The notes beneath the pieces were generated by a model that saw only the letters and a program-made list of their open reading frames with translations, had not been told where the DNA came from and did not search any database. Position numbers and translations under genes: made by a program. Of a stretch of 64,000 nt of DNA, positions 8,055 through 28,343 are shown one piece after another. The DNA comes from Burkholderia seminalis DSM 23518. GTDB lineage: Bacteria > Pseudomonadota > Gammaproteobacteria > Burkholderiales > Burkholderiaceae. The first letter of the stretch is position 1. Every line of letters starts with the position of its first letter. The DNA lies in assembly GCF_902832885.1 (NCBI RefSeq), contig NZ_CADFDK010000004.1:95655-159654 (forward strand), given 5' to 3'.

Positions 8055-8123
8055 GTCTCCTCCATGATGTCTCTACTGACATGGGTTGGCCCCGCCGCGC
8101 GGATGCAGGCGGGGCTTTTTTTT
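8055..8123 (+). ncRNA. Candidate intergenic small RNA with exposed anti-Shine-Dalgarno sequence
   Basis: Predicted RNA of about 69 bases in the gap between two minus-strand genes. It would begin with TCTCCTCC (8056-8063), complementary to ribosome binding sites, followed by a short stem-loop (ATGTC/GACAT around TCTACT, 8067-8082) and a GC hairpin with eight T residues. This layout (5' C-rich seed, short hairpin, Rho-independent terminator with a long U tail) is what is seen in Hfq-dependent regulatory RNAs. The ends are inferred from the promoter and terminator only. Confidence 0.45.
8089..8123 (+). terminator. Rho-independent terminator reading on the plus strand
   Basis: Perfect 8-bp stem GCCCCGCC (8089-8096) / GGCGGGGC (8108-8115), then T8 at 8116-8123. 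The T tract exists only for plus-strand transcription, yet both flanking genes are on the minus strand, so it must end an unannotated plus-strand RNA. Confidence 0.85.
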
Positions 8124-8176
8124 GGTTCATCGAGGATGGCCGGAAAACGGGGCGCGATGCTTTCGGTCGTGACGCG

Positions 8177-8482
8177 TTATTCGAATACCGGCCGGAAGAA
8201 GCTGCGCTCATAGCGGACGATGCAGCGCGTTTCCTCCGCGTAGCGGAACGCGGCCTGGCAGGCCGGATCCTCCATCGAGCGTTCGCGGTAGCGCTCGTAT
8301 TCGGCGAGACTCGGGAACGAGAACATCGCGAGCGCGATGTCGTTCGCGCCTTCGGACGGCAGGAAGTAGCCGTGATGCGTGCCGCCGAACTTTTCGACGA
8401 GCGGAATCCACATCTTGCCGTAGGTTTCGAACTCGGCGAGCTTGTACGGATCGATGACGTAGCGAAGGAAGCAGGTGACCAT
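8177..8482 (-). CDS. NIPSNAP family protein
   Basis: 101 residues from the chosen start MVTCFLRYVIDPYKLAEFE. The sequence follows the NIPSNAP/ferredoxin-like alpha-beta barrel pattern: VIDPYK, then WIPLVEKFGGTHHGYFLP, then FSFPSLAEYERYR, ending YERSFFRPVFE. Proteins of this family are dimeric and of uncertain function, sometimes found with degradation enzymes. I prefer the start at 8482 because family members begin close to this motif; an in-frame ATG four codons upstream (8494) is also possible, and neither has a strong ribosome site. It is a single gene with no obvious partner. Confidence 0.8.
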   Translation of the reverse strand: MVTCFLRYVIDPYKLAEFETYGKMWIPLVEKFGGTHHGYFLPSEGANDIALAMFSFPSLAEYERYRERSMEDPACQAAFRYAEETRCIVRYERSFFRPVFE

Positions 8483-8763
8483 GAACACTCGCATTGCGGT
8501 ATGGGAGCAGCGAGTCTGGAGCGCGTCGCCGCACGTGTCAACGGCATGCGTGCCCGGCATCGATATCGCCGCGTGACGGGGTGCTTGCGCGAACAACGAT
8601 CGGTGTGATTTCAGGGGTTTGCAACGACACGTGCGGCGTTGCGGGACGTACCTTTTTCATCGCGTCCGCCACGCCCGCTTCCCCAAACTTTTACGACATT
8701 TTTTCTTGCGACAGCGGCTGGCGCGCTCATAGACTTCGGGCATCCCCATCACGGAGCATGGCC

Positions 8764-9552
8764 ATGTCGATACCCTGGAACGCGATCGCCGAACGTCCTT
8801 CCGTCGCGCCGCCTTTCGTGAGCGCCGACCGGGTGGTCGTACGGCGTTTCGATCCGGCATTCGACAGCTATGCGCAACTCACGCCGATGCTGCATCGCGC
8901 CTTCGCGCGGCTCGGCGCGATGGGGCTGAACTGCACGTGCGTCGATCAGGACGAGGACGTCACGCGCCGCCGCGCGGAAGCCGGCGAGTGCTACGTCGCC
9001 GTCCGTGGCGGGCGCGTCGTCGGCACCGCGACGCTGTATGCGACCGATCCGTCCTCCGCATGCTCGCTGTACCGGCGCGAAGGCGTCGCGAGCGTGCGCC
9101 AGGTGGCGGTGGACCCCGATTGTCAAAGCCGCGGGATCGGCGCGTTGCTGTTGTCGTTCGCGGAGCAGTGGGCCGCGTTGCGCGGCTACACGCTGCTCGC
9201 ACTCGATACGCCGCATCCCGCCGCGCACTTGCTGGCGTTCTACGGCGCGCAGGGCTTCGAGGTCGTCGACGTGATGCGTTTTGCCGGCAAGCGCTACGAC
9301 AGCGCGATTCTCTGCAAGCGGCCCGTCGCGCACGTTGCGCGGCGTGTGTCGCCGGTGTCGCGGCTGGCCGCACGGGTCGCGGCCGTGCGGCGTCTTGCGT
9401 ATGGGTTGCCGTCGCGCGTGGCCGCGGTGGCCCGGCGCGATCTGCACGTGCGCCGCGGCGCGGGCTGGGCCGCGCGTCGTGCGGCCGGTGCCGCAAGCTG
9501 CCGCTCGTCGCCGTGGCGGCCGCGCCAGCACGGGCGCTACACGTTCGGCTGA
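8764..9552 (+). CDS. GNAT family N-acetyltransferase with basic C-terminal tail
   Basis: 262 residues. Residues 20-180 form a GNAT domain with the acetyl-CoA motif VRQVAVDPDCQSRGIGALLL and the following helix and FYGAQGFEVVDV motif. The final 80 residues or so (after SAILCKRPVAH) are rich in Arg and Ala with little predicted globular structure, an unusual addition for this family. GGAG precedes the second ATG (8764) by a good distance, but almost touches the first ATG (8758), which decides the start. The acceptor substrate cannot be told. It is transcribed alone, divergent from the NIPSNAP gene. Confidence 0.85.
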   Translation: MSIPWNAIAERPSVAPPFVSADRVVVRRFDPAFDSYAQLTPMLHRAFARLGAMGLNCTCVDQDEDVTRRRAEAGECYVAVRGGRVVGTATLYATDPSSACSLYRREGVASVRQVAVDPDCQSRGIGALLLSFAEQWAALRGYTLLALDTPHPAAHLLAFYGAQGFEVVDVMRFAGKRYDSAILCKRPVAHVARRVSPVSRLAARVAAVRRLAYGLPSRVAAVARRDLHVRRGAGWAARRAAGAASCRSSPWRPRQHGRYTFG

Positions 9553-10047
9553 GCGCCGCGCCCCGGTTCCCTTTCCGGTTTTTGCCGCGTAGGCGTCACG
9601 TGAGCGGAGTGTGGCGCTCCCGCTCGTGTACGGCCCTCGATACACCCCCGCCGCGTCGCGGCGAACGGACGTTTACGCGCTTTTTATGCGCTGGCGTGAT
9701 CCTTTGCCGCGGTCTTCACGCGAACCTTCATAAGATGGTCGTATGGAACCCGGACGCGGCTCGTGCGGTTGCACGCAGGCAGCCGTCGCGCGACGCACCG
9801 GCAAGAGGACGCCCACCATGCCTCTCGCTCATGTGGCTCATGTGGCTCATGTGACATGACTCGCGCCGCGTGCGCTGTTCCGCCATCCGGTGATGTTTTG
9901 CACGTACGTCGGCAGCATCCCGCCGACGCTTGCTCGAAGCGCCGCGCTGTTCATCCAGGTCGAAGCGCCGGCTGCATTACCGCACAGCGCGAAACACGGC
10001 GGGGCCGCGAAGACGCTTTCGGCGCCCCCTGGTGTCGCGCGTCGCGC
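9553..10047. other. Intergenic region, no gene recognised
   Basis: About 495 bases between the acetyltransferase and the convergent lytic transglycosylase gene. The open frames here lack ribosome sites and resemble no family. The only structure seen is a perfect triple repeat of a 9-mer at 9827-9853. No clear terminator for either flanking gene was found. Confidence 0.5.
9827..9853. repeat. Three perfect copies of a 9-bp unit
   Basis: GCTCATGTG is repeated three times head to tail in non-coding sequence. This is a short minisatellite; nothing in the surroundings gives it a role. Confidence 0.9.
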
Positions 10048-10701
10048 TCAGGGATTCGCGGCCGTCCGCAGTGCATCGGCCGGGGTGCCGTTCGACCGGC
10101 GCAATTGCGCATCGAATTGCTGCACGCGCAGCGCGACGCGCCGCGCATAGCGTTTCGTGCCGCCGTTGTAGCGCACGAGCGCGGTTTCGACGTCGCCGTC
10201 CGCATCGTCGAGATAGCCGCGGAAGATCGCCGCACCGATCCGCACATTGGTCGCCGGATCGGACAGGTCTTTCACATGCGCGACGAGGTCGCGGTGCGCG
10301 GCGGGCAGCACCTGCATCAGCCCGCGCGCACCCGCGACGCTGGTCGCGTGGCGATCGAAGCCCGATTCGACCGCGATGATCGCGAGCAGCAGCGCCGGTG
10401 CGAGCCCGTAGCGGTCCGATTCGGTCTGCACCGCGCGCGCGATCGTGCAGGCTTCGGCATACGCGACGTGAAAGCGGTTGCGCAGTGCGGTGACGATCGT
10501 GTCGAGGGTGGGCGACGGCGACGCGGCGGGCGTGCTGGCGGCGGTCACGGGCACGGCCGGCGTGTCGTCGGCGTGCGCGGGCAGCGCGACCGACAGTGAC
10601 AGCGCGAACGGGAAAAGCAGCGCAAGCCGTTTCAACGGCAGCGTCGGGCACGGACGTGTGCGCAGTGCCGGCCGGTCGTGCGATGGACAGGTTTCCTGCA
10701 T
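10048..10701 (-). CDS. Lytic transglycosylase (SLT domain), periplasmic
   Basis: 217 residues. An export signal (LKRLALLFPFALSLSVALPAH, then A) precedes an SLT domain: catalytic Glu in LLLAIIAVESGFDRHA, then the GLMQVLP motif, then AIFRGYLDD and ALVRYNGGTKRYA. It would cleave peptidoglycan glycan strands with formation of anhydro-MurNAc. With the ATG at 10701 the signal helix starts only at residue 23; a TTG at 10635 would put it at the very N-terminus, so the true start is uncertain. A paralogue with the same architecture lies at 55210-55896. Confidence 0.88.
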   Translation of the reverse strand: MQETCPSHDRPALRTRPCPTLPLKRLALLFPFALSLSVALPAHADDTPAVPVTAASTPAASPSPTLDTIVTALRNRFHVAYAEACTIARAVQTESDRYGLAPALLLAIIAVESGFDRHATSVAGARGLMQVLPAAHRDLVAHVKDLSDPATNVRIGAAIFRGYLDDADGDVETALVRYNGGTKRYARRVALRVQQFDAQLRRSNGTPADALRTAANP

Positions 10702-10805
10702 GTCGTCGCGTCGTGGTTCCGATGCGACGACTGTACGCAGTTACGCGTTGCGACCTTCGAAAGAAACGGGCGTGCCTAATAAACGCTGCATAAAGACGCG
10801 CGGCG

Positions 10806-12161
10806 TCACGCGTCGCGGCCGCGCGAGTCGCCGCCGCCTTTCGCGAGTCGCCACGCGATCGTGCCGAGCACGCCGACCGCGACGACCAGCGCGCCCCACA
10901 GCACGAAGCGGCGAGTCGCGTCGGTATCGGCGGGCGCCGGTGCGACCGCCGATACCGGCAGCGCCGCGCCGACCCGTGCGGGCCGCACTTCGGGCGCCAT
11001 GCCGACCAGCAGCGCCTCGCGGCTCACCGCCGACGACACGAGCGACGCGTCGCCGACACCGAGCGTAAACGGCGGTGTGCCGCGCGCGACGAAGGTCAGC
11101 GCGGCCGGATGCCAGCCGATCGCGACGGCCGGCTGCCCGCCGCCGAACCCGCCGTTACGCATGTCGACGACGATCCGCCATGCACGGTCCGTATTCGCCG
11201 CGAACTCGAGCGGCGGATTGCGCTGCTCGCCGGCCTTGCCCTGCAGCCGGAACAGCACGGCGCCCGCGACGTCGCGCCACGGCGCCTGCGCGTCGGAGCG
11301 GCTCTGCAACGTCGCGCGCGCAACCGTATTCGGTTGCGGCAGGTCGATGCGCACGCGATCGACCGGATAGGCGCCATCGGTGTCGAACAGATACTCGCCG
11401 GGCGTATCGCCGGCGCGCACGCGCACGGCGTTGCGCCATTGGCGCGGCACGGACGCGGTATCGGTTCCGCGAGCGTCACGCGGATGCGTCTCCACGTCGA
11501 TCGACGCGATCGCGGGTGCGTCGTCGAGCCAGTCCAGCCGCAGGTAGCGGGGCGCCGCGCCTTCGAGTGCGATGCGCTCCTGCACCAGCATGTCGTCGCC
11601 GTGGCCGACTTTCAGCAGTTGCGTGCTGCCGAGCGACCGCCAGCTGCGCAGGTCGTCGCTCGCTTCGATCGCGACACGTCCCTGGTAGCGGTCGTCGCCC
11701 ACATGCACGAGCAGCGCGTCGATGGTGCCGTCCGTATGCGACAGGTCGACGAGATCGGCGCCATGTTTCGTGCGCGCCGGCGCGGTGCTTGCCGCGCGCA
11801 GCGCGCCGTCCGGGCCGACCGTCACGCCGAGCGGCGCGCCGCCGTTGTCGGTGCGGGCCGGCGGCAGCGGAAACCAGTGCACCGGCGTGCGCGTCGGTGG
11901 TACCGCGAGCGCGGCCGCGATGGGGGCGTCGAGCGAATACGGCACCGGTTCGCCCGCGCCGTTGAAGATGCGCACGTCGCCGAGATCGTCGCGCCGGCTC
12001 GCCGCATACACGAGCTGCGGCACGGTGAGCTGGTAATACGCGGCGCTGCCGTCGAGGTCGAGCGCGAAGCGTTGTGTCACGCGTGCGACGTCCGGCATGC
12101 CGTCGGCCGCCGCGAACGACGCGAGCAGGCCCAGTCCGAGCAGGGCGGCGAGTCGCTTCAT
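10806..12161 (-). CDS. DUF3999 family membrane-anchored exported protein
   Basis: 451 residues. A Sec signal (MKRLAALLGLGLLASFAAAD) leads into a long periplasmic beta-rich region with motifs usual for DUF3999 (VYAASRRDDLGDVRIFN and GEPVPYSLD near residues 50-70, YLRLDWLDD in the middle). Near the C-terminus is one membrane span (FVLWGALVVAVGVLGTIAW). The ATG at 12161 overlaps the stop of the upstream DUF2339 gene in an ATGA arrangement, so the two are translated together. These two families commonly occur as neighbours; their biochemical role is unknown, though envelope location is clear. Confidence 0.85.
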   Translation of the reverse strand: MKRLAALLGLGLLASFAAADGMPDVARVTQRFALDLDGSAAYYQLTVPQLVYAASRRDDLGDVRIFNGAGEPVPYSLDAPIAAALAVPPTRTPVHWFPLPPARTDNGGAPLGVTVGPDGALRAASTAPARTKHGADLVDLSHTDGTIDALLVHVGDDRYQGRVAIEASDDLRSWRSLGSTQLLKVGHGDDMLVQERIALEGAAPRYLRLDWLDDAPAIASIDVETHPRDARGTDTASVPRQWRNAVRVRAGDTPGEYLFDTDGAYPVDRVRIDLPQPNTVARATLQSRSDAQAPWRDVAGAVLFRLQGKAGEQRNPPLEFAANTDRAWRIVVDMRNGGFGGGQPAVAIGWHPAALTFVARGTPPFTLGVGDASLVSSAVSREALLVGMAPEVRPARVGAALPVSAVAPAPADTDATRRFVLWGALVVAVGVLGTIAWRLAKGGGDSRGRDA

Positions 12162-15100
12162 GACTGCTCGTCCTGTTGTGCGGCGGCTTTCGGCGGCATC
12201 GGCGAGAAATAGCCGATCAACAGCAGCAGCACGCCGATGCCGATGAACGACACGATGCGCTCGATGCCGGTCACGTGCGACAGGTCGAACAGGAACAGCT
12301 TGACGACCGTGAGCGCGAGCAGCGCGGCGCCGACGAACCACAGCGGACGCAGCCCGCGGCGCGTGGCCCAGATCGCGATCGCGAGCGCGCAGAGCGTCCA
12401 GTACACGGATACCGAGGCCTGCACGAGCGTCGATTCCGCCATCGCGCCGAATTCGTACGGCACGCCTGCCCAGTGATGCAGCGTGCGCAGCAGGATCGCG
12501 TTCAGCCACAGGAACGCGGTGGCGCCGGCCGCGCTCAGCAGCGCGACGCGATACTTGCCGAACGACCCGCCGAGCTTGCGCGCGCGGATGAACCACGACG
12601 CGGCGAGCGCATAGACGACTGCTAGCACGAGATCGAGCGGGTTGAAGAGCGGCACGCGCGCCCAGCTTCCGCCGTCCTGCGTGAAGTTCGCATAGAAGGT
12701 CCACATCCACATCACGACGATCAGCGGCAGCGACGCGAATGCGCAGATACGGGCGATGCCGTCGCGGCGCGTCAGCCACATCCCGGCGAACGCGAACAGG
12801 CTCCAGCCGACCATGAACACCTGCTGGATGCCGAACGACGACAGCACGGTGTCGAGGTCGTAACCGGTGTGGAAGCGGTGATGCAGCGTGCGCAGCATCA
12901 GCGCGTTGAACCACAGGAACACGGTCGCGATCGCCGCATAGTCGACCACGCGCGGATGCCACGCGATGCCGAGCGCTTTCAGGCGGCGCAGCCACGCGGC
13001 GAACGCGACGAAGACGAGACACTGCGCGATGTCGAGCGGATTGAGCAGCGGCAGCCAGAAGAGGGGGGCCGCGCTGCCGTCGCTGACCGTGCTCGCGATG
13101 CTCCATAACCACAGCAGCGCGGCGAGCGGCGCGGCGCCCCACACCTGGTACGCGCGCGGGAACGCCGCGACCGGCCAGCGCAGCCGCGCGCCGGGGCCCG
13201 ACACGAGCAGGAGCAGCGCGCCGAAGCCGTATGCCCATGCGCTCCAGCTCCATGCGCCTTCGGGGACGAACGCGCGCAGGCGCCAGAAGCCTTCGAGCGA
13301 CAGCAGCCCGCACAGGGTCCAGAACATCAGCGTATGCAGCGGCGCGACGATGCCGGCGGCAATCGATGGCACCGTGCCGCTCCCGGCATCGGCGCGAGCC
13401 GGGCCGCGCGCCTGCCGCCACAGCAATGCAAGCCCCGCGCCGACGGCAACGGGCCACGCGAATGCGCCGATACCCGACAGCGGGGCTTCATGCGCATCGA
13501 ACGCGCGCAGCGCGAGCAGCGCCAGCACCGGCGTGAGCGCGAGCGCGGGCCATTCGGCGAGCGGCCACGCGAGCTTGCGGCGCGCGACGTGCGCGAGCCA
13601 CGCGGTGCCGGCCGCGAACAGCGCGGTCGTGTCGACGACGAAGCGGTCGGCATGCAGATCGACGTGGCGGCTTGCATGGACGAGGATCTCGTGCAGCCCG
13701 CCGCTGACCCACCACAGCAGCCCCCATGCAGCGGCCGCGACGCCGATTTCCGGCATCCACGCGTGCCACGCGCGCGCTTCGTCGCGCCCGTGCAGCCACC
13801 AGCCGGTGAACAGCCCGGCGAGCGCGATCAGCAGCATCGCGATGTACGGGCTGTTGAGCACCGGCAGCGCGGTGGCGTCGGCCGGCCCGAGCAGGCTCGT
13901 GAAGAACGCGCCGGCCGCGGCGATCTGCATCAACAACCCGAAGCCGAACGGCAGCAGACGCTTCTGGCGCACGCCGAGCCACACGATGGCCGCGCCTTCG
14001 ATCGCCCACGCGGCGCTCGTTGTCGGCCCCGAAAACGCGAGCGGCACGGCCAGCGTCGCGAAGATCACCGCGAGCGCGAGCATCGATTCGAACAGCAGCC
14101 CGAGGCGGTCGCGGCGCCGCGCGAGCCAGGCCGCGACCGCAACGTAGAACGCCGACAGCGCGACCGCGCTCCATGCGAGCCCGAACGGCATGCCTTTCAC
14201 GAGCGACGCCTGCAGCGCGGTCGCGACGATCGGCGTGCCGAACACGAGCGTGCCGTCCACGTAGTGCCGCAACGCGATTTCGCGTTTCAGCGCATACAGC
14301 AGCGCGATGCCGACATACATCAGGAAGAACAGGATCAGGAACGGTTCGGTGCTCGCGAACAGCGCGGGACGGTAGGCCGTCACGCCCCAGGCCGAGCCGA
14401 TCGTGAACGTGAAGACGAAGCCGAGCAGGTTCAGCGGACGCCATGCCTTGAACCACGCGATCGCGAAGATGCCCGCGTTCAGCAGCGCGTAGTAGCTGAA
14501 CAGCGCGACGTGGTTGCCCTGGCCCGTCGACAGCAGCACCGGTGCGAGGAAGCCGCCCGCGCTGCCCATGAACGCGAGCGGCAGCGCGTTCTGCCGCACC
14601 GCGAGGAACGCGCTCAGCGCGCAGACCGCGACCATCAGCGGAAACGCGGCGCCGACCGGAAGCAGCGCGTAAAGCTTGGTCGCGGCGAAGATCGTCAGGT
14701 ACAGGATGCCGATGCCGCCGCCTTGCAGCACGAGGCCGTACGCGGCGCGGCGTGCGCGCACGCGCCAGCCGATCGCGAGCAACGCGGCCGCGGCGAGCGC
14801 GGTGCCCGCGAGGCGGAATTCGATCGGCAGCATGTTGTTGTCGGCCGCGTACTTGAGCAGGAACGCGACGCCGAAGAACAGCACGATGATGCCGACGCGC
14901 ACGACCGTGTTGCCGCCGAGCAGCCAGTCGCGCGCGGCGCCGAATGCGCGGTCGACGAGGCCGGGTTCGCGCGGCGCGGGCGGGGCAGGGCGGGCGGGTG
15001 CGGCGGCGGGACTTGCCGTCGGGCCGACGGGAGCCGACGCGGGTACGGCCGGACGCGCCGCGGTGGCCGGCGCGGGCGTCGCGGCAGGCGCCGGGATCGA

Positions 15101-19431: not shown

Positions 19432-20379
19432 ATGAAGCGCCTATTGATCGCAGCGGTGTGCGGAATCGGGGTAACCGCGCCGATGTCGGCCGTTTATGCG
19501 GCCGATCCGCCCGTATGCAAGAACGTGCGCTTCGCGGATGTCGGCTGGTCCGACATCGCGGCGACCACGGGCCTCGCGTCGACGATGCTGCAGGGCCTCG
19601 GCTACAACCCGACGAAGACGATCGCCTCGGTGCCGATCACGTTCGCCGGGATCAAGAGCAAGCAGATCGACGTGTTCCTCGGCTACTGGTCGCCGACGAT
19701 GGACCCGATCATCCAGCCGTTCACGAAGGCCGGCACGATCAAGGTGCTGTCGACGCCGAACCTGACCGGCGCGAAATACACGCTCGCGGTGCCCGACTAC
19801 GTGTACCAGGGCGGCCTGAAGTCGTTCGCGGACATCCAGAAGTACGCGGACAAGCTCAACGGCAAGATCTACGGGATCGAGCCGGGCAACGACGGCAACC
19901 TGCTGATCAAGAAGATGATCGACGGCAACAAGTTCGGCCTCGGCAAGTTCAAGATGGTCGAGTCGAGCGAGGCCGGTATGCTGGTCGAGGTGAATCGCGC
20001 GATCCGCGACAAGCAGTGGATCGTGTTCCTGGGCTGGGAACCGCATCCGATGAACGTGCAGATGAAGATCGACTACCTGAGCGGCGGCGACGACGTGTTC
20101 GGCCCGAACTACGGCGAAGCGAAGGTGCTGACGGCCACGCCGCCCGACTATGCGCAGCGCTGCCCGAACGTCGCGAAGTTCGTGTCGAACCTCCAGTTCA
20201 CGACGACGATCGAGAACCACGTGATGTTGCCGATCATGAACAAGGAAGACCCGAACAAGGCGGCCGCCGAGTACCTGAAGGCGAACCCGCAGGCGCTCGA
20301 CAAGTGGCTCGCCGGCGTGACGACGCTCGACGGCAAGCCGGGTCTGCCGGCGGTGAAGGCGTATCTCGGCGTGCATTGA
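19432..20379 (+). CDS. choX: Choline ABC transporter periplasmic substrate-binding protein
   Basis: 315 residues with a signal peptide (MKRLLIAAVCGIGVTAPMSA, cleaved near VYA-ADPPVC). The mature part follows the ChoX/ProX family: RFADVGWSDIAATTGLAS, KQIDVFLGYWSPTMDP, and WIVFLGWEPHPMN, with aromatic residues that cage quaternary amines. Strong GAGGAG ribosome site. It delivers choline to the ChoVW permease. A strong terminator follows at 20407. A degraded copy of its last 40 codons or so is found at 27993-28116, on the far side of the peptide-export cassette. Confidence 0.92.
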   Translation: MKRLLIAAVCGIGVTAPMSAVYAADPPVCKNVRFADVGWSDIAATTGLASTMLQGLGYNPTKTIASVPITFAGIKSKQIDVFLGYWSPTMDPIIQPFTKAGTIKVLSTPNLTGAKYTLAVPDYVYQGGLKSFADIQKYADKLNGKIYGIEPGNDGNLLIKKMIDGNKFGLGKFKMVESSEAGMLVEVNRAIRDKQWIVFLGWEPHPMNVQMKIDYLSGGDDVFGPNYGEAKVLTATPPDYAQRCPNVAKFVSNLQFTTTIENHVMLPIMNKEDPNKAAAEYLKANPQALDKWLAGVTTLDGKPGLPAVKAYLGVH

Positions 20380-20406
20380 AGGTGGTTTGCAGGTTCGGGC
20401 TGCAAG

Positions 20407-20441
20407 CGCCCGCCTCCGGGAAACCGGGGCGGGCGTTTTTT
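20407..20441 (+). terminator. Rho-independent terminator after the choline operon
   Basis: Perfect 8-bp stem CGCCCGCC (20407-20414) / GGCGGGCG (20428-20435), followed by T6. It lies 28 bases after the choX stop and separates the choline operon from the peptide-export cassette. Confidence 0.88.
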
Positions 20442-20929
20442 CGCATGCGCGGCACCGTGACGATCCGGTCCCGCGGCGCCGCTTCCCGCGTCCAGTGACG
20501 TTTTGCGAAGCGTCCGGTTGACCGTTACCCGCGTCAAAAAATAAAACACGGCAATCCGCCGATCGACGCGTGTTCCGCCCGCGCACTTTGTCGCGATATT
20601 TCTGACTTGTCCGATTGGCTTCGACGTAGCCGGGCACGAGAATAACGCCTAGCTCACAAGGCGGACGGCAACATGACTCGGTCGATGCTTGCGGGCGCCT
20701 TGTGCAACCGGCCATGTTCCTGTCGAGGATCGGGTAGCGATTTCGTTTGCAGTCGACCGACGAAGATCGGACGGGCCGCATCTTGTCGTGCGTCGGAAAA
20801 GACGCGAAACGACATCACACGCTGGGCTGCGGCGAACGACATACATGGTCCCTGAATATCTTGGCGAGGCTGACGTGGCAGTGGCGTCGGCGGCTCGCGG
20901 AGTCGATCATGCATCGAAGGGGAATTGCA
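20442..20929. other. Upstream region of the peptide-export cassette
   Basis: About 488 bases without a convincing gene. A possible promoter is TTGACC at 20518-20523 with TAAAAC at 20542-20547 (18-base spacing) in the local AT-rich stretch; it is about 400 bases from the first gene. A perfect 9-bp inverted repeat (CACAAGGCG at 20655-20663, CGCCTTGTG at 20696-20704) could form a long-loop hairpin in the leader or serve as an operator. An open frame runs through from 20747 into the fimbrial gene, but the residues before its signal peptide look non-coding. Confidence 0.4.
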
Positions 20930-22003
20930 GTGAACGACGAAAGTCGTGGTAACACGCTGAAGCGTATGTCATTTGTCCCGGCGGCGTGCCGCTGCCTGCC
21001 CGGCTTCTGCGCCGGCGTGGCGCTGCTGGTGTTTGCATGCCTGCCGTCGCGAGCGATGGCCGCCTGCGAACTCGGCACGGGCGGCGTCTATCGCGTATCG
21101 CTGTCGCTGCCGGCGAGCGTCACGGTGCCGCGCGATGCGCCAGCGGGTACCGTCATCACGAGCGCGCGATACACCTATTCGTTCAATCAGTCGAAGCCGG
21201 TCGGCGTCTACTGTACGACGGGGACAACCGTCGAAAACCAGAGCGGATCGGGGGTGCAATCGTCCAACGGCATCATTCCGACAGGTACCCGGGGCATCGG
21301 CTACCGGTTGCGCCTCGAAGCGGACGGCTATGCGCCGGACACCGGTTCTTACACCATACCGGTGTCGGTCTTCAATACCGCGTCGCGGTGCGGCTATCCG
21401 GCGAGCGGCAAGTGCTACGTCTATCTGGGCACGCCGGTCGTGCTGGAACTCGTCAAGACGAGCGACGTGCCGCCCAACGCGGTGATTGCCGGCGGGCTGC
21501 TCTTCACGCAGCGCATCGGCGGTCTGGCCGCGTCGACGGTCACGCTGTCGACGCCGCAGGTGAGCGTCGCATCTCAGAGCTGCACCGTGACGTCGAGCAA
21601 AGTGAACGTACGCTTCGGCCGGATCGGCGCGCACATGTTCGGCGGGGTCGGCAGTGCGGCGTCCGCGGTTCCGCTCGGTATCTCGATCGATTGCCGGGGC
21701 GTGTCGTCGAGGATTGCGGTGACCTTCACCGACGTCTCGTCGCCGAACAACCGTTCGAATGTGTTGTCGCTGACGAGCGATTCGACCGCGCGCGGCTTCG
21801 GCATCCAGATATTGTCCGACGCACGGCCGATCTCGTTCGGCCCCGATTCGTCCGTCGCCGGCAATCCGAACCAGGTCGTGATCGGCACGGTCAGCAACAC
21901 GATTTACGAAGTGCCGTTCTCGGCGCGCTACATCCGCACGGCGTCGGACATCAAGGCCGGCACGGCCAACGGTCTCGCGACGTTCACGATGTCGTACCAG
22001 TGA
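20930..22003 (+). CDS. Two-domain fimbrial (type 1 pilin-like) exported protein
   Basis: 357 residues from a GTG preceded by AAGGGG. After a signal peptide (FCAGVALLVFACLPSRAMA, cleaved before ACELG) there is a first beta-rich domain of about 170 residues with paired cysteines. A C-terminal domain (from about residue 210) resembles FimA/FimH-type pilin modules: SQSCTVTSSKVNVRFGRI, SIDCRG, ending TFTMSYQ. The layout is like a tip adhesin. No chaperone or usher gene is near, which is odd for a chaperone-usher pilin. It lies 64 bases before the double-glycine peptide gene on the same strand and is probably part of that cassette. Confidence 0.8.
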   Translation: MNDESRGNTLKRMSFVPAACRCLPGFCAGVALLVFACLPSRAMAACELGTGGVYRVSLSLPASVTVPRDAPAGTVITSARYTYSFNQSKPVGVYCTTGTTVENQSGSGVQSSNGIIPTGTRGIGYRLRLEADGYAPDTGSYTIPVSVFNTASRCGYPASGKCYVYLGTPVVLELVKTSDVPPNAVIAGGLLFTQRIGGLAASTVTLSTPQVSVASQSCTVTSSKVNVRFGRIGAHMFGGVGSAASAVPLGISIDCRGVSSRIAVTFTDVSSPNNRSNVLSLTSDSTARGFGIQILSDARPISFGPDSSVAGNPNQVVIGTVSNTIYEVPFSARYIRTASDIKAGTANGLATFTMSYQ

Positions 22004-22067
22004 TGTGCCGCGCCCCGTGGCCGCGGCATGGTTGGCCAAATCGCTTTCAACCCAAGGAGCAGGGAAG

Positions 22068-22250
22068 ATGAAAAAAATCGATCGCACGACGCTCGCGCAA
22101 TCGCAGCTGGCGGGAGGTTGCTGCAAGCGGCGGAGCACGCCGACAAAGAACACACGCTCGGCGCCGCAGCCTACCGCCACGCCGCCCACCACGACGCCGC
22201 CGACCACGACGCCGCCCACCGGCGGTGGCGGCGTGACGATTCGGCCGTAG
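22068..22250 (+). CDS. Double-glycine leader precursor peptide (microcin/RiPP-like)
   Basis: 60 residues, with a very strong AAGGAG ribosome site. The leader MKKIDRTTLAQSQLAGG (residues 1-17) has the Gly-Gly pair and Leu at -4 expected for cleavage by C39 peptidases. The predicted 43-residue mature peptide starts Cys-Cys, has a basic patch (KRR, residues 20-22), then a Thr/Pro-rich segment with three TPP-type repeats (residues 38-51) and ends GGGGVTIRP. It is followed by the exporter genes. I know of no family for the mature part: it could be a bacteriocin, a signal, or a surface-attached peptide. The Thr-rich tail could be modified, but no modifying enzyme other than the LpxL-like protein is seen. 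Confidence 0.78.
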   Translation: MKKIDRTTLAQSQLAGGCCKRRSTPTKNTRSAPQPTATPPTTTPPTTTPPTGGGGVTIRP

Positions 22251-22457
22251 CGCTGATTCCCGGCTGTCGCGAACCGGTCGACGGTTCGCGCAGTTCCGCT
22301 GCCACTCCGTCGCCGGCATCACGCCGGCGCGTTCATGCACGGCACGTATGCCGCGTGATGCGTCGCACCGGGTTCCGCCCTGCACGCGGCCTGTCGCCGC
22401 GAGTCGGTCGGCAGGCTACCGGGCCGCGCAGACGGCCCGACATCCGGAACATCGAAA

Positions 22458-23660
22458 TTGGATTGGGAAGCTGGAAAACTGCCGCGCTTCGCGGATGTGT
22501 CGTGGCGCTGGATCGCATACTGCGCGTCGGCCATCGTCGGCGCGGGCATTGTCTTTGCATGTGTCCAGGAGATCGAACTCAAGCGGGACGTGCCGTGCGA
22601 AATCGTGTCGCCGTTCGACGTCCGGATTACGGGTCATGAAGGGCTCGTGACGGCTGTGTACGTGGCGTCGGCCACCCCGGTGCGAAAGGGGCAGCCGCTG
22701 TTCCGGCTGGCACGCGACCTGACGTTGTCCGCCGACGGCCGCCCAAGGCCGGTCTTCGACGAAGCGTCGCGCGACAGGCAGACGGCCGCGACGAACGCGC
22801 AATTCGACGATCGCATCGCCGCGCTGCAGGCTCGCATGCAGGCGGTCGGGCGCACGGAGGCGGCGCGCACGCGCGAACTCGACGCACTCGGCGATCGGCA
22901 GCACCGCTTGCGGCAGATGGCCGACGACGCGCGGCGCAGGCTTGCCCGTGTCGAAGGCGCCGCCGACTACGTCATTGCCGATCGCATCGAGCAGGCACGC
23001 ATCGAGGTCCGCCAGAACGAAGCGGAGATTGCCCAGGGAGATGCCCGGCATCAGGCGCTGCTTGCCGATCTCGAAACCTTGCGCGGTAGCCGCCGCGAAC
23101 TCGACGCGCAGGTCCGGGAACTGCATGCGCAGCGCGATCGTGAAGTGCAGGACATTCTGGTGCGTTACGAGGCGGCGCGGCGGGACATCACCGTATCGGC
23201 GCCGAACGACGGCATCGTGACGTTTTCGGGCCTCGTGCCGGGGAATGCGCTCGCGTCCGACGACGTCGCGCTCGTGATCTCGACCGGCCCGAAACCGTCG
23301 CTGTCCGCCGCACTACGCATTCCGTCGCGGCAACGCGGGTTTGTGCGAGAAGGGCAGACGGTCCGCATCAAACTCGACGCGTTCCCCTATGCCCGCTTCG
23401 GCAGTGTCGCCGCGCGCATCGACTCGATTTCCGGCACGACGATGACCGCGGCCACGGCTTCGTCGCCGTCGTCGGCGCCCACCGGCGCGCGACCGACCGA
23501 TTACATGGCGTGGGCGACGGTGCGCAGCGCGACGTTCGGCTCGCCCCGCGAGCCGCTGCGGATCCTTCCGGGCATGCATGGCACCGCGAGCGTCGTCGTC
23601 GAGCGCCGTTCGATCGCCGAGTGGGTATTCGAACCGCTGTTCCAGATGATCCGGAGTTGA
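22458..23660 (+). CDS. HlyD-family periplasmic adaptor of the peptide exporter
   Basis: 400 residues from a TTG start (22458); the ribosome site is weak and the exact start uncertain. One membrane helix near the N-terminus (WIAYCASAIVGAGIVFACV) precedes a lipoyl/barrel-sandwich half (DVRITGHEGLVTAVYV), a long coiled-coil hairpin (residues about 95-230) and a beta-barrel part (VSAPNDGIVTFSGLVPGN, PSRQRGFVREGQTVRIKLDA). It would bridge the inner-membrane ABC exporter and the TolC-like channel. It ends 3 bases before the exporter gene. Confidence 0.88.
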   Translation: MDWEAGKLPRFADVSWRWIAYCASAIVGAGIVFACVQEIELKRDVPCEIVSPFDVRITGHEGLVTAVYVASATPVRKGQPLFRLARDLTLSADGRPRPVFDEASRDRQTAATNAQFDDRIAALQARMQAVGRTEAARTRELDALGDRQHRLRQMADDARRRLARVEGAADYVIADRIEQARIEVRQNEAEIAQGDARHQALLADLETLRGSRRELDAQVRELHAQRDREVQDILVRYEAARRDITVSAPNDGIVTFSGLVPGNALASDDVALVISTGPKPSLSAALRIPSRQRGFVREGQTVRIKLDAFPYARFGSVAARIDSISGTTMTAATASSPSSAPTGARPTDYMAWATVRSATFGSPREPLRILPGMHGTASVVVERRSIAEWVFEPLFQMIRS

Positions 23661-23663
23661 CGC

Positions 23664-25763
23664 GTGCGCGTGATTTACCAGAATGAAGTCGCGGACTGCG
23701 GATATGCGTGCCTGGCGATGGTGCTGAGCCATCTCGGGCGCGCGACCGAAGTACGCGTGATTGCCGCGCATCGTCCGGTGTCGTCGCACGGGCTGACGCT
23801 GATGGACCTTTACGACGTCGCGAACGATTTCGGGCTGGCGGTGCAGGCGTATCGGTTCGACGCCGGCGATCTGGCCGACATCCGGCCCGGCTCGATCATC
23901 CATTTCGGCGGCGCGCATTTCGTCGTCTTCGAGCGCGTTCGCCGCGGCCATGTGCAGGTGATCGATCCGGCAGTCGGGCGACGCCGCGTCGCGCTCGACA
24001 TGTTCCTGTCGAGCGTGTCCGGCTACTTGCTCGAATGTGCGCCGACGCCGGGCTTGCCGCGCATTCGCGCACGTTCGCGCGTGCCGGCCGCGCTCGAGCG
24101 CGTGAGGGCGCTGAACCCGCAGTTGCGCGGGCAAATCGGCAAACTCCTGTTCGTTGCGCTTGGAAGCCAGTGCGCGATCCTGGCCATGCCGTATTTCGGC
24201 AACCTGGTGCTCGACCAGATCGTGACCAGCGACAACCGGAATCTGCTGCGGATTCTCACGCTGACATTCGCGAGCATTTTCGCGATCGGGACGTTCAGCC
24301 GCTTCGTGGAGTCGTATCTGACCGCGCTGGTTCATACGCTCGTCAACGTGAACATGACCGAAGGGCTGATCGGGCAATTGCTGCGCCACCCGATTCCGTA
24401 TTTCGAGAAGCGCAACGTCGGCGACCTGTTCGCGCGCGTCAAGTCACAGGATGAAATCAACGAATTCGCAGTGCGCACCGCGATCTCGCTGCGGATCGAT
24501 CTCGCGGTCGGCGGCATCGCGGTGCTGCTGATGCTCGCGCAGAGCCCGCTGCTGGCCGGCGTCGCGCTTGGCATATTCGCAACGTATGTCGGCGCGGCAT
24601 TCGCGCTGTATCGGCCGATGCGTGATGCGCACATGCTGGTGCTCGAACGGACGGCCGAATGCGAGGACTTGCTGTTCGAGACGATCCGGGGAGCTCCGGT
24701 GATCAAGCTCGCGTCGGGCGAAGTGCGGCGCACGGCGATTTGCATGGCGAAATTCAAGGCGTGCGCGGCGACGATGCTGCAGAGCGCGAAGCTCACGGCC
24801 TGGCGCGACGCAGTGTTGAAATTCGTCGACTATGCGGACGTCGTCGCGATTACCTGGCTGTCGGCCGGACTGATGCTCGACGGCAAGATTTCGGTCGGCG
24901 TGTTCTATTCGTTCATGATCTACAAGTCGCTCGCGTCGGAGCGGCTCGCGCAGGCGATCAACGCGCTGTTCGCGCGCCTGATGCTGACGGTGCCGGTCGC
25001 CCGGGTCGCCGATATCGTCGACGGCGAGCCGGAGCGCTATACGCCGCTGGAGCAGATCGGCCGCGCGGCCGAGACGCGGTGCTTCGAATCGATCGAGATG
25101 AGCAATGTTTCGTTTGCATATGGGGCGTCGGACCGTCGCGTGTTGACTGGCGTGAGTCTCGATATCCGTCGCGGCGACCGCATCGCGATCGTGGGGCCGT
25201 CCGGATGCGGGAAGTCGACGGTCTTCAAGCTGCTGTGCGCGGCCGAACACGCGCAGCATGGCGACGTATGGCTGAACGGCGTGCGCTACGCGAATCTCGA
25301 GGTCGACGAGATTCGCCGTCACATGACGCAGATGCGGCAGGGCGACTTGATCCTGCGCGGATCGATCGCCGACAACGTGTCGCTGTTCAGCGCAAATGCC
25401 GACCCTGCGCGCATCAACCGTCTGCTCGACGAGGTCGGCCTGCTGGACGACGTGATGCGCTTGCCGATGCGCACGCGCACGATCATCAGCGATTCGATCG
25501 CGAACATCTCGGCGGGGCAGCGGCAGCGCCTGCTGCTCGCGCGCGCACTGTATCAGCCGGCCGAGCTGATGCTGCTCGACGAGCCGACGTCGAACCTCGA
25601 CGCGGTGTCCGTTCAGCGTATCGCGGCGTTGTTGCAGCGTATCGATCGAACGGTCGTCGTGATCACCCACGATCGCTCGCTCGCCGCCACGTTCGAGCGC
25701 TGCTATGAACTCGTGGATGGTGTGCTAGTGCCGGGCGTGGCCAATCGCGCGGGGGCGGCATGA
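23664..25763 (+). CDS. Peptidase-containing ABC transporter (C39 peptidase, PCAT)
   Basis: 699 residues, GTG start with GGAG at 7 bases. An N-terminal C39 peptidase domain has all catalytic residues: Gln6 and Cys12 in YQNEVADCGYACLAMV, His85 in GGAHFVVFE, Asp101 in VIDPAVG. A six-helix membrane domain (about 150-430) follows, then the ATPase with Walker A GPSGCGKST (near 512), signature ISAGQRQRLLLARAL (LSGGQ changed to ISAGQ) and Walker B LMLLDEPTSNLD. Enzymes of this type cut leaders after Gly-Gly and export the peptide. The substrate is most likely the 60-residue peptide encoded just upstream. The ATG of the TolC-like gene overlaps its stop (ATGA). Confidence 0.93.
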   Translation: MRVIYQNEVADCGYACLAMVLSHLGRATEVRVIAAHRPVSSHGLTLMDLYDVANDFGLAVQAYRFDAGDLADIRPGSIIHFGGAHFVVFERVRRGHVQVIDPAVGRRRVALDMFLSSVSGYLLECAPTPGLPRIRARSRVPAALERVRALNPQLRGQIGKLLFVALGSQCAILAMPYFGNLVLDQIVTSDNRNLLRILTLTFASIFAIGTFSRFVESYLTALVHTLVNVNMTEGLIGQLLRHPIPYFEKRNVGDLFARVKSQDEINEFAVRTAISLRIDLAVGGIAVLLMLAQSPLLAGVALGIFATYVGAAFALYRPMRDAHMLVLERTAECEDLLFETIRGAPVIKLASGEVRRTAICMAKFKACAATMLQSAKLTAWRDAVLKFVDYADVVAITWLSAGLMLDGKISVGVFYSFMIYKSLASERLAQAINALFARLMLTVPVARVADIVDGEPERYTPLEQIGRAAETRCFESIEMSNVSFAYGASDRRVLTGVSLDIRRGDRIAIVGPSGCGKSTVFKLLCAAEHAQHGDVWLNGVRYANLEVDEIRRHMTQMRQGDLILRGSIADNVSLFSANADPARINRLLDEVGLLDDVMRLPMRTRTIISDSIANISAGQRQRLLLARALYQPAELMLLDEPTSNLDAVSVQRIAALLQRIDRTVVVITHDRSLAATFERCYELVDGVLVPGVANRAGAA

Positions 25764-27067
25764 CGATCGGACGGATCCTGCTCGCGGCGGCGCTCGCTTG
25801 CGTGTCGCAGCACGCGCTTGCGGATGACCTGATGTCGGTCGTGACCAGCGCGCTCGATTACGACGCGGAACTCGCCGGCGTGCGCTCGGATGTCGAAGTC
25901 GGCCGTCTCGGTGTGCCGCGCGCGCGCGCCGCGCTGTTGCCGCGGATCGATGCGGGCTGGGGACGCACGTACAACCGGATCGCGACGCGGGACGTTCCGT
26001 CGATGCATTACTGGCAGAACGGCTGGACGGTATCGTTGACGCAGCCGCTGTTCGACTGGGAACGCTGGATCGCCTATCGGCAGGCGGGAACGGCGGCCGC
26101 CAAGGCGGAACTGACCTATGCGCGTGCGCAGCAGGCGCTGATGCTGCGCGCCGGGCGTGCGTATTTCGACGTTCTGGCGGCGACCGACGAATTGATGCGC
26201 GCGACGGAGTATGTGGCGGCGGTTGCCGAACAGCACGAGATCACCGTGCACCGACGGGCGGCCGGAGAGGCGACGCTGATCGACGTACGCGAGGCGCAAG
26301 CGCAGCTCGATGCGGCGCGGCTGCAGCAGATCGACGCGCGGCAGGCCGTCGATTCGCGCCGCCGGATTGTCGAAACGCTGATCGGCCGGCCACTCGGCCC
26401 GTTCGCGCGCGTGCCGGACGAAACGCCCGCGTTGCTGCTCGATCCGGACGACGCCGGGTATTGGGTTGCCCAAGCGGAGCAGAAGGGCTATCCGGTCCAG
26501 ATCGGCGAACTCGCCGTGCGCGACGCGCGGGATGAGGCTCGCCGAGTACGCGCGCAACGGTATCCCGTCGTGAATCTGACGGGCAGCCACACGCCGGCGG
26601 GTGCGGCATCGGGTTTCGCGCAGCCGACGACCACGACGACCGCGATGGTGACGATATCGATCCCGCTGCTGACGGGCGGTGACATCCAGGCGCGCCTCGG
26701 GCAAGCGCTGGCGGGTGAGGACAAGGCGCGCAGCGCGCTGCAGGCAGCCACCCGGCAGGCGGGGGCCGACACGCTCGACGCCTTCCAGCGGCTGCACTGG
26801 GCACGCGAGCGCGGCGAACTCCTTGGCCGCCTCGTGCGGGCCAACGAGCGAACGCTCGACGCGACGCGGATCGGCTACCGGGTCGGCAGTCGTTCCAACC
26901 TCGATGTGCTGCGCGCGAGCGAGGCACTTTTTGCGAGCCGCAAGGCGCGGCTGGGTGCGCACTACGACATGCTTGCCGCGTACCTCGCGTTGAAATCCGG
27001 TGTCGCGTCGCTGGATTTCGACGACGTCGCGCGGATCAACGGATGGTTGACCAACGATGGCCGATAA
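25760..27067 (+). CDS. TolC-family outer-membrane channel of the peptide exporter
   Basis: 435 residues with a signal peptide (MTIGRILLAAALACVSQHAL, then ADD). Two TolC-type repeats of beta-strand and long coiled-coil helices are recognisable: VSLTQPLFDWERWIAYRQAG in the first half and VTISIPLLTGGDIQARLGQA in the second, each followed by heptad-rich helix. Length agrees with the family. It would form the outer-membrane exit duct joined to the HlyD-like adaptor and PCAT. It overlaps both the exporter stop and the next gene start, so the four genes form one operon. Confidence 0.92.
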   Translation: MTIGRILLAAALACVSQHALADDLMSVVTSALDYDAELAGVRSDVEVGRLGVPRARAALLPRIDAGWGRTYNRIATRDVPSMHYWQNGWTVSLTQPLFDWERWIAYRQAGTAAAKAELTYARAQQALMLRAGRAYFDVLAATDELMRATEYVAAVAEQHEITVHRRAAGEATLIDVREAQAQLDAARLQQIDARQAVDSRRRIVETLIGRPLGPFARVPDETPALLLDPDDAGYWVAQAEQKGYPVQIGELAVRDARDEARRVRAQRYPVVNLTGSHTPAGAASGFAQPTTTTTAMVTISIPLLTGGDIQARLGQALAGEDKARSALQAATRQAGADTLDAFQRLHWARERGELLGRLVRANERTLDATRIGYRVGSRSNLDVLRASEALFASRKARLGAHYDMLAAYLALKSGVASLDFDDVARINGWLTNDGR

Positions 27068-27971
27068 GCGGCAGCGACGCCTCGGTTGGCGCGATCGATG
27101 GCTGCTGCGCCTGTCGGGCCGCGGGCTCGAGCGGTTGGCGCTGGCTGTGTGGGTCTTGCGGAGTCTCGGCAGCCCACGCACCCGCTGGGCGGGCCGGTTG
27201 CGCTACGAGTGGGGGCGCGACCACGTCGCGCTCACCCGTGCGCACATCTGGCGGACGATGGCGGCAGGCGAATTCGAGCGCCTGATGGATCGGCGCCTGC
27301 ATGCCGAACGCGCTGCCGGCCGCGATGTCGAATGGCCGGGCCTCGAAGCGGCCACGCAAGCGCTGGCTCGAGCGATCGCCCGGATTCGCGACGAATCGGG
27401 CGGCCGTCCCGTGATCGTGTCGCCGTTTCATTACGTGTCGCAGTTTGCGAACGTGATCGTGATCGATGCGTTGCGCGACGCGCTGCAATTGTCCGAGATC
27501 GCAGTCGTATCGGGCATCGCGCGGGATACGTATGGCGGTTTCGAGTCGACGCTGATGCCGAACGTGCGCGTGTTGCACACCTACGACGAAGTCAATCGCA
27601 ATGCGCTCGGGCTGCGCGTCTTGCACGCGCTGCGACGAAACGGCGTTGCCGTGGTGTTCGCCGATGCGCCGCCGTACCTGATGCAGCGCTTTCCGATGGA
27701 GACGATCGAGGTCGCGATGTTTGGGCGGCCGGCGCGGATTCACCGTGGCGTGTTCAGGATCGGCGCGCGCGCCGGTGCGGTGCTGGTGCCGTTCCATCTC
27801 GAATTTGCGGCTGGCCGGTTCGACCACCGGATCTTCCCCCCGATTGATCTCGAGCAGGCCGACGCGCCGCAACGCGTGTCGGATTGCATCGAGCGCGCGT
27901 GTATCGATGCGTATCCGGACTGGATTCTGGCCGGGCATCCGTCGCAATACGGGTTCGCGCCGCTCAGGTAG
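27057..27971 (+). CDS. LpxL-like lysophospholipid acyltransferase-superfamily protein
   Basis: 304 residues, overlapping the TolC-like gene by 11 bases. The sequence follows the lipid A/LpxL acyltransferase fold: an N-terminal amphipathic segment, then VIVSPFHYVSQFANVIVIDA, then GVAVVFADAPPYLMQRFPME and a FGRPARIHRGVFRIGARAGA block typical of the second conserved motif. However, the catalytic His-x4-Asp/Glu motif reads His-Tyr-Val-Ser-Gln-Phe, so the acid is missing. It may be inactive, use other chemistry, or act as a lipid- or peptide-binding protein. Its position at the end of the export operon suggests a role in peptide modification or immunity; this is an inference. Confidence 0.75.
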   Translation: MADKRQRRLGWRDRWLLRLSGRGLERLALAVWVLRSLGSPRTRWAGRLRYEWGRDHVALTRAHIWRTMAAGEFERLMDRRLHAERAAGRDVEWPGLEAATQALARAIARIRDESGGRPVIVSPFHYVSQFANVIVIDALRDALQLSEIAVVSGIARDTYGGFESTLMPNVRVLHTYDEVNRNALGLRVLHALRRNGVAVVFADAPPYLMQRFPMETIEVAMFGRPARIHRGVFRIGARAGAVLVPFHLEFAAGRFDHRIFPPIDLEQADAPQRVSDCIERACIDAYPDWILAGHPSQYGFAPLR

Positions 27972-27992
27972 GGCGTCGTCGCCGTCTACTCG

Positions 27993-28116
27993 AGCAAGGC
28001 CGCCGCCGCATGGCTGAAGGCGAACCCGCAAGCGCTCGGCAAGTGGCTCGCGGGCGTGACGGCGCTCGACGGCAAGCCGGGTCTGCCTGCCGAAGGCGTA
28101 GCTCGGCGTGCCTTGA
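27993..28116 (+). pseudogene. Degraded 3' end of a choline-binding protein gene (choX remnant)
   Basis: This stretch aligns by eye with the last 40 codons or so of choX (20253-20379): the reading KANPQALGKWLAGVTALDGK matches KANPQALDKWLAGVTTLDGK, and the match continues to the TGA. There are about 15 substitutions and a 2-base deletion near the end that shifts the frame. No start codon, ribosome site or 5' part of the gene is present. It lies 21 bases after the LpxL-like gene. Confidence 0.85.
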
Positions 28117-28214
28117 GCATGACGCGTCGGGCTTTTTGCTGCCCGCGCCGCGAGCCGCCAGACGGTTGCCCGACGATGCGCTAGACTGCTCGATCCCCGA
28201 TCGAGGAGACGGCA

Positions 28215-28343
28215 ATGATCCGTACTGCGCCTGATGCATCCGGATGGCAATACGCGGCCGGCACACGGCCGAACGGCGCGGCCGCTTCGGGCGACACACG
28301 CTGCAACCGGACGATGCAGCGCTTCGGCCATTCATTCGCATGA
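28215..28343 (+). CDS. Possible 42-residue upstream ORF overlapping the channel gene start
   Basis: An ATG with a strong GAGGAG site (28203-28208) opens a 42-codon frame beginning MIRTAPDASGWQY. It ends in a TGA that overlaps the ATG of the TRIC-type channel gene (ATGA). The channel gene itself lacks a ribosome site, so this short frame may exist to couple translation. The peptide resembles nothing I know and has no membrane or signal segment. Confidence 0.35.
   Translation: MIRTAPDASGWQYAAGTRPNGAAASGDTRCNRTMQRFGHSFA

Follow-up and report, generated by a model that had tools for sequence, protein, structure and literature searches.

An LpxL-like acyltransferase accompanies a conserved peptide export cassette in Burkholderiaceae and may acylate its double-glycine peptide

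Introduction

Class II microcins of the colicin V type are made from Gly-Gly precursors and leave the cell through a conduit of HlyD, C39-ABC, and TolC proteins; to our knowledge, none of them has an LpxL-like partner. Here, we analyze a stretch of 64,000 nucleotides from Burkholderia seminalis DSM 23518 (the window, on contig 4 of an 8.0-Mb genome in 55 contigs), which contains a six-gene cassette sharing this kind of precursor and conduit, together with a divergent acyltransferase that we call ACT (Table 1). In contrast to the class II microcins, the cassette has no evident dedicated immunity gene, and the core of its peptide starts with a conserved Cys-x-Lys.

Several modified systems are closer in one respect or another, and the comparisons that follow are with excerpts of the cited papers. 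The raxX-raxST-raxA-raxB cluster of Xanthomonas likewise combines a small double-glycine precursor, a dedicated modifying enzyme, an HlyD-type partner, and a C39-ABC exporter in a small, laterally moving cluster (PMC6637879). Its modifier, however, is a tyrosine sulfotransferase, whereas that of the cassette would be a member of the LPLAT superfamily, and TolC is a housekeeping gene there (PMC6637879) but lies inside the cassette here; the likeness is one of gene content. In nostolysamide, a GNAT enzyme acylates Lys1 of a lanthipeptide core of the Gly-Gly/C39 type, and this selidamide system (NpuA-NpuN-NpuT) resembles the cassette in its Gly-Gly precursor, its C39 peptidase ABC exporter (PCAT), and a fatty acyltransferase that acts on a lysine at the core start (PMC13060382). 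A lysine is also found at the core start here, at position +3 in 74 of 78 distinct precursors as compared with position 1 in NpuA. The selidamide system has a GNAT enzyme with a lanthionine synthetase and a Nif11-type leader (PMC13060382), whereas the cassette has an LPLAT protein, no synthetase, and a leader of 17 residues; the Pfam and NCBIfam matches listed with E-values for the six cassette proteins include neither a GNAT acyltransferase nor a lanthionine synthetase domain.

VexE, which produces the lipid by which an exported surface polymer, the Vi capsule, is anchored, is an LPLAT protein with a tyrosine at the acid position of the HX4D/E motif and a His/Asp catalytic pair, features that recur in ACT; its acceptor is UDP-GlcNAc, its cargo a polysaccharide, and its architecture a fusion of TPR and LPLAT domains (PMC9597891). 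If Cys+1 of the peptide were the acceptor, the product would also resemble the DAG-RiPP/lipoprotein hybrids (RiPP, ribosomally synthesized and post-translationally modified peptide), which are small peptides with a lipid-bearing N-terminal cysteine. Those are made by way of a signal peptide, Lgt, LspA, and Lnt (PMC12636315), whereas the leader here has no hydrophobic stretch, carries Ala at −3, and would be cut by the C39 peptidase.

An initial annotation of the window had proposed a peptide-secretion system of a kind not described before and without a known RiPP-modifying enzyme. Our search of the open-access literature, with subscription literature mostly outside its scope, found no description of a peptide exporter paired with an acyltransferase. 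By this measure, the ACT partner and the precursor family are new, but the export machinery is ordinary. That no known RiPP-modifying enzyme is present is literally true, but ACT is the obvious candidate modifier.

Results

A conserved peptide export cassette

All six reading frames of the initial annotation are present, separated in order by 64, 207, 3, −4, and −11 bp. Because of the last three spacings, the final four genes abut or overlap, as had been noted for the region from 23664 on, and the complete type I path with a C39 peptidase described there is backed by Pfam and NCBIfam matches for the HlyD, C39-ABC, and TolC proteins (Table 1). Two further NCBIfam matches lie under the cut-offs of their models: TIGR01843 for the HlyD protein (E 1.8e-23) and TIGR03796, the top model for the exporter, with 325 bits against a cut-off of 853.3. 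On reading its sequence, the exporter has its motifs in place, namely Q6/C12, H85, and D101, which we take to hold the C39 triad, as well as GPSGCGKST, SAGQRQR, and LMLLDEP; its HlyD and TolC partners are encoded in the same cluster. With the domain fusion, the motifs, the partners, and a precursor gene all found, the cassette has the gene content of C39 (PCAT) type I peptide secretion and appears to be a real, conserved peptide-secretion unit with ordinary export machinery.

Table 1. Features of the cassette and of related loci (window positions unless a locus is named)
Feature	Position	Strand	Remarks
Direct repeat, left copy	20249..20379	+	3' end of upstream ProX-like gene
Fimbrial adhesin-like protein, 357 aa	20930..22003	+	PF00419 on residues 212-357, 67.5 bits; optional neighbor
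Candidate precursor gene	22068..22250	+	60 aa; 17-aa double-glycine leader, 43-aa core; from sequence and relatives
HlyD-type periplasmic adaptor	22458..23660	+	TTG start; PF13437 39.8 bits, PF16576 36 bits
C39 peptidase ABC exporter (PCAT)	23664..25763	+	PF03412 84.3 bits, PF00664, PF00005
TolC-type outer membrane channel	25760..27067	+	PF02321; TIGR01844 241.7 bits, cut-off 225.15
ACT, divergent LpxL/PatA-fold acyltransferase, candidate peptide acylase	27057..27971	+	H125, D203 invariant
Direct repeat, right copy	27988..28116	+	Downstream of ACT; 88-92% identical to left copy
L205 system	G000:C9:92000-110000, 5570-13812		LpxL-like, HlyD, OmpW-like, divergent TolC-like gene, two double-glycine peptides
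Cupriavidus-type clusters	L065, L066, L067, L169		Distant LpxL-like gene, C39 exporter, double-glycine peptides without Cys+1

A precursor family with a conserved leader and core start

The window precursor consists of the 17-residue leader MKKIDRTTLAQSQLAGG and a core, of the 43 residues predicted initially, that begins CCKRR (Cys-Cys-Lys) and ends in a Thr/Pro tail with TPP repeats. To define the family, we compiled 93 loci, comprising 58 named loci (L111-L168), the window, and 34 others; loci of other types (L169, G184, G147, G283, G220, G191, and G284) were excluded. Dropping 23 with an identical ACT match left 70, and setting aside nine that were not intact (L112, L120, L135, L144, L163, L166, G277, G279, and G322) left 61, with cassettes counted as intact if ACT, HlyD, ABC, and TolC were each covered to at least 80% by a single tblastn match. 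A precursor was found in all 61 (60 by script and L145, which has a GTG start and a CCK core and was missed by the script, by eye), and a precursor with Cys+1 in 60 (59 by script, plus L145). The initial annotation had stated that a peptide gene not conserved beside the exporter would refute its proposal; the gene is conserved there in every intact cassette found. Among the loci set aside, L112, L120, L135, L144, L163, and G277 retain a Cys+1 peptide (CCK in G277), no peptide was seen at L166, and the peptides remaining at G279 and G322 are without Cys, including at +1, and have Lys+3; such damaged copies are too few to weigh.

The script looked for Ile, Val, or Leu near −14, Arg or Lys near −12, Ala, Ser, or Thr at −3, and a Gly-Gly or Ala-Gly end, permitting leaders of 17-19 residues and choosing 17 if several fitted. 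All 78 distinct precursors have 17-residue leaders with Ile/Val-14, Arg-12, Leu-9, and Gly-Gly, and Ala-3 is present in 74, Cys+1 in 59, and Lys+3 in 74. As −14, −12, −3, and Gly-Gly were fixed by the script, the free evidence lies in Leu-9, Cys+1, and Lys+3. A control with the 17-residue pattern over 3,877,596 strand-bases gave four distinct matches beyond those counted, of which three are additional peptides of cassettes and one looks like a chance match. Within the core, no residue is more conserved than Lys+3; even among the 19 precursors without Cys+1, it is present in 17, and all 19 have some lysine at +1 to +4. Cores of the Cys type span 16-43 residues, with tails that are Pro/Thr-rich, Cys-rich, or beta-strand-like, and no Pfam or NCBIfam model matched at its cut-off when run on the window precursor, on a set of nine (NCBIfam), or on a set of eight (Pfam).

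Several loci encode two to four precursors each. L154, L159, L162, L150, and L122 have three to four, with Cys-starting peptides beside non-Cys ones, an arrangement resembling two-peptide systems.

A lipoprotein (Lgt) route to a lipid on Cys+1 was considered and rejected, since the leader, of the type MQKI(D/E/N)R, is not hydrophobic and has neither a signal peptide nor a lipobox. The lipobox consensus has a Leu-like residue at −3; that position is Ala in 74 of the 78 precursors, under a pattern that permitted Ala, Ser, and Thr.

Compared with the nearest relative precursor, the first 20 codons of the window gene differ 2, 1, and 7 times at codon positions 1, 2, and 3, and the remaining codons 11, 7, and 9 times. 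In these two Burkholderia copies, the leader and core start therefore appear conserved and the tail fast-evolving, a pattern that would also suit a RaxX-like signaling or host-interaction peptide, modified by ACT through a chemistry other than fatty acylation. The carriers are mostly Paraburkholderia or Caballeronia, genera that are plant- or soil-associated. Furthermore, the gene logic equals that of raxX-raxSTAB as excerpted (PMC6637879). Against such a role, no regulator or receptor gene was seen travelling with the cassette (judged by gene clusters only), the fold of ACT is that of a fatty acyltransferase, and the tails seem too variable for a single receptor, so that we regard it as improbable.

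Linkage of ACT to the exporter

The six genes are syntenic in a second Burkholderia, where the products of the five large genes are 86-94% and the peptide is 68% identical to those of the window; the nearest cassette relative of the window is that of Burkholderia sp. Nafp2/4-1b (G044). ACT was found in two of 65 genomes of the genus and, at E 0.001, in 40 of 299 genomes of the family, six of these 40 being distant (E 3e-12 to 5e-4). In an order-wide sample, with five candidates scored per genome, it was present in two of 399 genomes. A scan of named genomes with the ACT alignment gave 59 loci, chiefly in Paraburkholderia, several in Caballeronia, and some in named Burkholderia, with further ones in Cupriavidus lacunae, a single Rhodanobacter, and a single C. 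pauculus, the last being of another type. One record of a plasmid collection matched, in a stretch without annotation.

Loci found through ACT cannot test its presence, and we therefore used a search with the exporter. ACT adjoins 30 of 31 full-length exporter copies (at least 57% identity, no inner stop), which come from 30 of the 299 family genomes; copies may be missed, because three candidates were scored per genome. The exception is G279, where the cassette is split between two places, and broken or partial exporters occur in five further genomes (G322, G260, G181, G277, and G225). ACT thus appears tied to the exporter.

In relatives, the usual gene order is precursor-ACT-HlyD-ABC-TolC, with ACT usually directly after the precursor: 86 of the 93 loci have it ahead of HlyD, on the side of the precursor, and seven after HlyD. 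These seven represent five distinct lineages (the window, Nafp2/4-1b, C. lacunae, P. dinghuensis, and Rhodanobacter); the four that the exporter tree includes fall on the same side of a branch with support 97/84. This tree comprises 56 of the 59 loci L111-L168 plus the window, those with an exporter match of at least 600 residues and no stop. The unit drawn in the initial annotation thus stands as dedicated peptide export, whereas its boundaries are not supported as defining traits: ACT comes after HlyD in only the seven loci just mentioned, and the adhesin is beside the cassette in only 16 of 56 named loci. Nearly all copies of the peptide-exporter set include ACT.

The Rhodanobacter locus L120, outside Burkholderiaceae, contains an usher operon, an adhesin, HlyD in pieces, an exporter, and ACT, which suggests lateral transfer. 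Peptide leaders there end in Ala-Ala-Gly, and its Cys+1 peptide has a TTG start.

ACT shares the catalytic residue pattern of VexE

ACT scores 15.9 bits against PF03279, under the gathering cut-off of 22.3, and matches PRK07920 with E 8.5e-7, under the model cut-off; its predicted fold is that of the LPLAT (LpxL/LpxM/PatA) superfamily, and its nearest solved relatives are lipid-acting enzymes. H125 is kept in all 27 aligned sequences, whereas the acid of the HX4D/E motif is absent, with Tyr (22) or Phe (2) in its place in the 24 close sequences and Met, Ala, and Ile once each in the three distant ones. D203, also invariant in 27 of 27, aligns with the Asp of a true LpxL and of the L205-type protein described below, and corresponds to the block-3 acidic partner of the PatA E200 type, the position of E200 being taken from excerpts (PMC4792965, PMC9597891) and not from a superposition of our own. 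VexE, too, is without the HX4D/E acid, yet active (PMC9597891). ACT has the catalytic pattern described for VexE: the His is kept, the acid is replaced, in the close ACT sequences by Tyr or Phe and in VexE by Tyr, and the block-3 Asp is kept (PMC9597891, PMC4792965).

LpxL-like genes beside other C39 exporters

Another C39 exporter of the source genome is 32% identical to that of the cassette and has an LpxL-like gene directly behind it (L205, Table 1). There, the LpxL-like gene is followed by genes for HlyD and for an OmpW-like protein; the locus also has a divergent TolC-like gene and, upstream, two double-glycine peptides unrelated to those of the cassette. The L205 LpxL-like gene occurs in 31 of the 65 genus genomes, and in all 16 genomes in which a 30-33% identical exporter was listed, an LpxL-like gene lies downstream, with 41-53 bases between the matches. 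In a third type, seen in three genomes of one genus, Cupriavidus, a protein 23-25% identical to ACT is paired with a C39 exporter, and MacA- and MacB-like genes follow in the one such cluster scanned; MacB-like pumps are described as lipopeptide exporters in Pseudomonas (PMC8788793, excerpt). Because at least three deeply diverged exporter lineages, whose peptides are unrelated, show this pairing, it may represent a general lipid-tagging route for secreted peptides.

The source genome contains two further C39-domain genes, at L272 and L281 (C3 and C4), near which a search of weak sensitivity gave no LpxL-like match.

Acylation or immunity

The cassette encodes a small precursor, whose double-glycine leader has 17 residues, and, beside it, its own HlyD/C39-ABC/TolC conduit. 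From what is known of the families, the leader would dock on the C39 domain, a cut after Gly-Gly would free the Cys-x-Lys core, and the core would be exported across both membranes through the conduit. We propose that ACT would act earlier, in the cytoplasm, and acylate the precursor with a fatty acid while the leader is still attached. The likeliest acceptor would be Lys+3, present in most precursors with or without Cys+1, or else Cys+1 itself, in which case S-acylation could be followed by a shift of the acyl group to the N-terminal amine that leader cleavage exposes. More speculatively, the product might sit at the cell surface or act on other cells, its variable tails carrying the specificity.

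This reading draws on the position of ACT behind the precursor, its LPLAT fold and VexE-like residues, the conservation of Lys+3 and Cys+1, and the rax and nostolysamide precedents. On these grounds, secretion of an acylated peptide, in which cleavage, export, and acylation would all take part, seems quite possible, if somewhat short of probable. That an LpxL-superfamily enzyme lipidates Lys+3 or Cys+1 before cleavage, which would make the products a new class of lipopeptide RiPPs in Burkholderiaceae, is put forward more tentatively.

A number of observations weigh against acylation of the peptide. Cys+1 is missing in 19 of the 78 precursors and Lys+3 in four, and L121, the one exception to Cys+1 among the 61 intact cassettes, has a core that starts Asn-Cys-Lys. 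The peptides of the L205 and Cupriavidus types do not have the Cys-x-Lys start, and one L205-type core contains neither Lys nor Cys; hence, the shared enzyme type need not target either residue. When 40 further C39-exporter regions of the class were scanned, no LPLAT gene was found beside the exporter, apart from a housekeeping LpxL at L270 (E 0.018); this survey says little, since with that profile even the known L205 gene reached only E 0.57. Its 72 rows comprised the 40 scanned, the window and L205 exporters, and 30 others, mostly short C39-only genes. Lastly, the characterized LPLAT enzymes that we know of acylate lipids or sugars. The same is true of those in the excerpts consulted (PMC9597891, PMC4792965).

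In the main rival explanation, the peptide would be an unmodified, microcin-like bacteriocin, and ACT would confer immunity by acylating or otherwise altering lipid A or phospholipid against the cell's own cationic peptide. Many cores are indeed cationic (CCKRR...), ACT could fill the place of the separate immunity gene that is not evident in the cassette, its nearest solved relatives act on lipids, and LpxL-like genes recur next to exporters of unrelated peptides. On the other hand, ACT usually lies right behind the precursor, like the modifying enzyme of the rax cluster, several of the cores, short and rich in Ser/Thr, are barely cationic, and Lys+3 and Cys+1 stand far above the remaining core in conservation, which a plain bacteriocin would not need. 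We consider immunity unlikely, although it is the alternative to be taken most seriously.

If ACT acylates the peptide, ribosomal peptides would become a new class of substrate for the LPLAT fold, which is known from the synthesis of lipid A, phospholipids, and glycolipids, and a large group of soil bacteria would gain a family of lipopeptides for which a single leader motif suffices as a search criterion. Should it protect the producer instead, it would represent a new type of bacteriocin immunity, by a change in membrane lipids.

Flanks and mobility

The cassette is bordered by a ProX-like gene on one side and a TRIC-like gene on the other (both named from sequence reading) and resembles its surroundings in G+C content. 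Two related genomes (L208 and L209) have an empty site, at which 80 and 88 bases separate the flanks; in G044, the cassette is placed on the opposite side of the TRIC-like gene. A laterally mobile secretion unit for an acylated peptide is our best reading, which we hold with less than even confidence.

A decaying or non-functional genomic island would show some of the same features: the cassette occurs in just two of 65 genus genomes, a direct repeat flanks it, and broken copies exist (G277, G279, G310 = L166, and G322). The window, however, has six open frames, and in the comparison with the second Burkholderia dN is below dS for all of them, most clearly for ABC (0.028/0.193), HlyD (0.036/0.173), ACT (0.059/0.327), and TolC (0.044/0.18); the values are 0.078/0.162 for the fimbrial gene and 0.208/0.41 for the peptide. 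Decay is accordingly very hard to credit. An Rfam scan of 20300-28300 at gathering scores found no regulatory RNA, and within 20350-22700 we found neither a sigma-70-like promoter nor a plus-strand terminator-like site after the precursor.

The fimbrial adhesin is an optional neighbor

Of the 56 loci in the exporter tree, 16 have the adhesin next to the cassette, at its precursor end, a distribution that requires five gains or losses; adhesin-bearing L112 is outside the tree. In relatives, the adhesin lies next to usher operons, with an usher match in 14 of these 16. The DNA scanned contains no adhesin in the other 40, three of which (L128, L137, and L139) have less than 2.4 kb upstream. A definition of the cassette by its adhesin was rejected on this distribution. 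In the window, the queries used gave no usher, no chaperone, and no second pilin match, and the nearest usher on the contig is about 105 kb from the cassette. The adhesin of the window is therefore an orphan, without the usher and chaperone genes that would mark a chaperone-usher fimbria.

This neighborhood raises the question of a fimbrial accessory, in which the peptide would complement or anchor chaperone-usher pili or an orphan adhesin, a beta-like tail serving as donor strand. The adhesin and usher matches above fit such a role, and some tails do alternate hydrophobic residues (TTVVIYIQGK). Yet a beta-like tail and an adhesin coincide in only five of 56 loci (12 with a beta-like tail, 16 with an adhesin), a tail of this kind is missing from the window peptide, most loci show no adhesin in the DNA scanned, and a type I channel bypasses the periplasm, the site of pilus assembly. 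The donor-strand role has little support from these counts and was set aside; we judge a fimbrial function to be very unlikely.

At L202, L203, and L059 (G279 and G260), pieces of usher genes lie directly against pieces of HlyD or the exporter. These junctions appear to be scars of deletion or rearrangement inside a region that held both fimbria and cassette.

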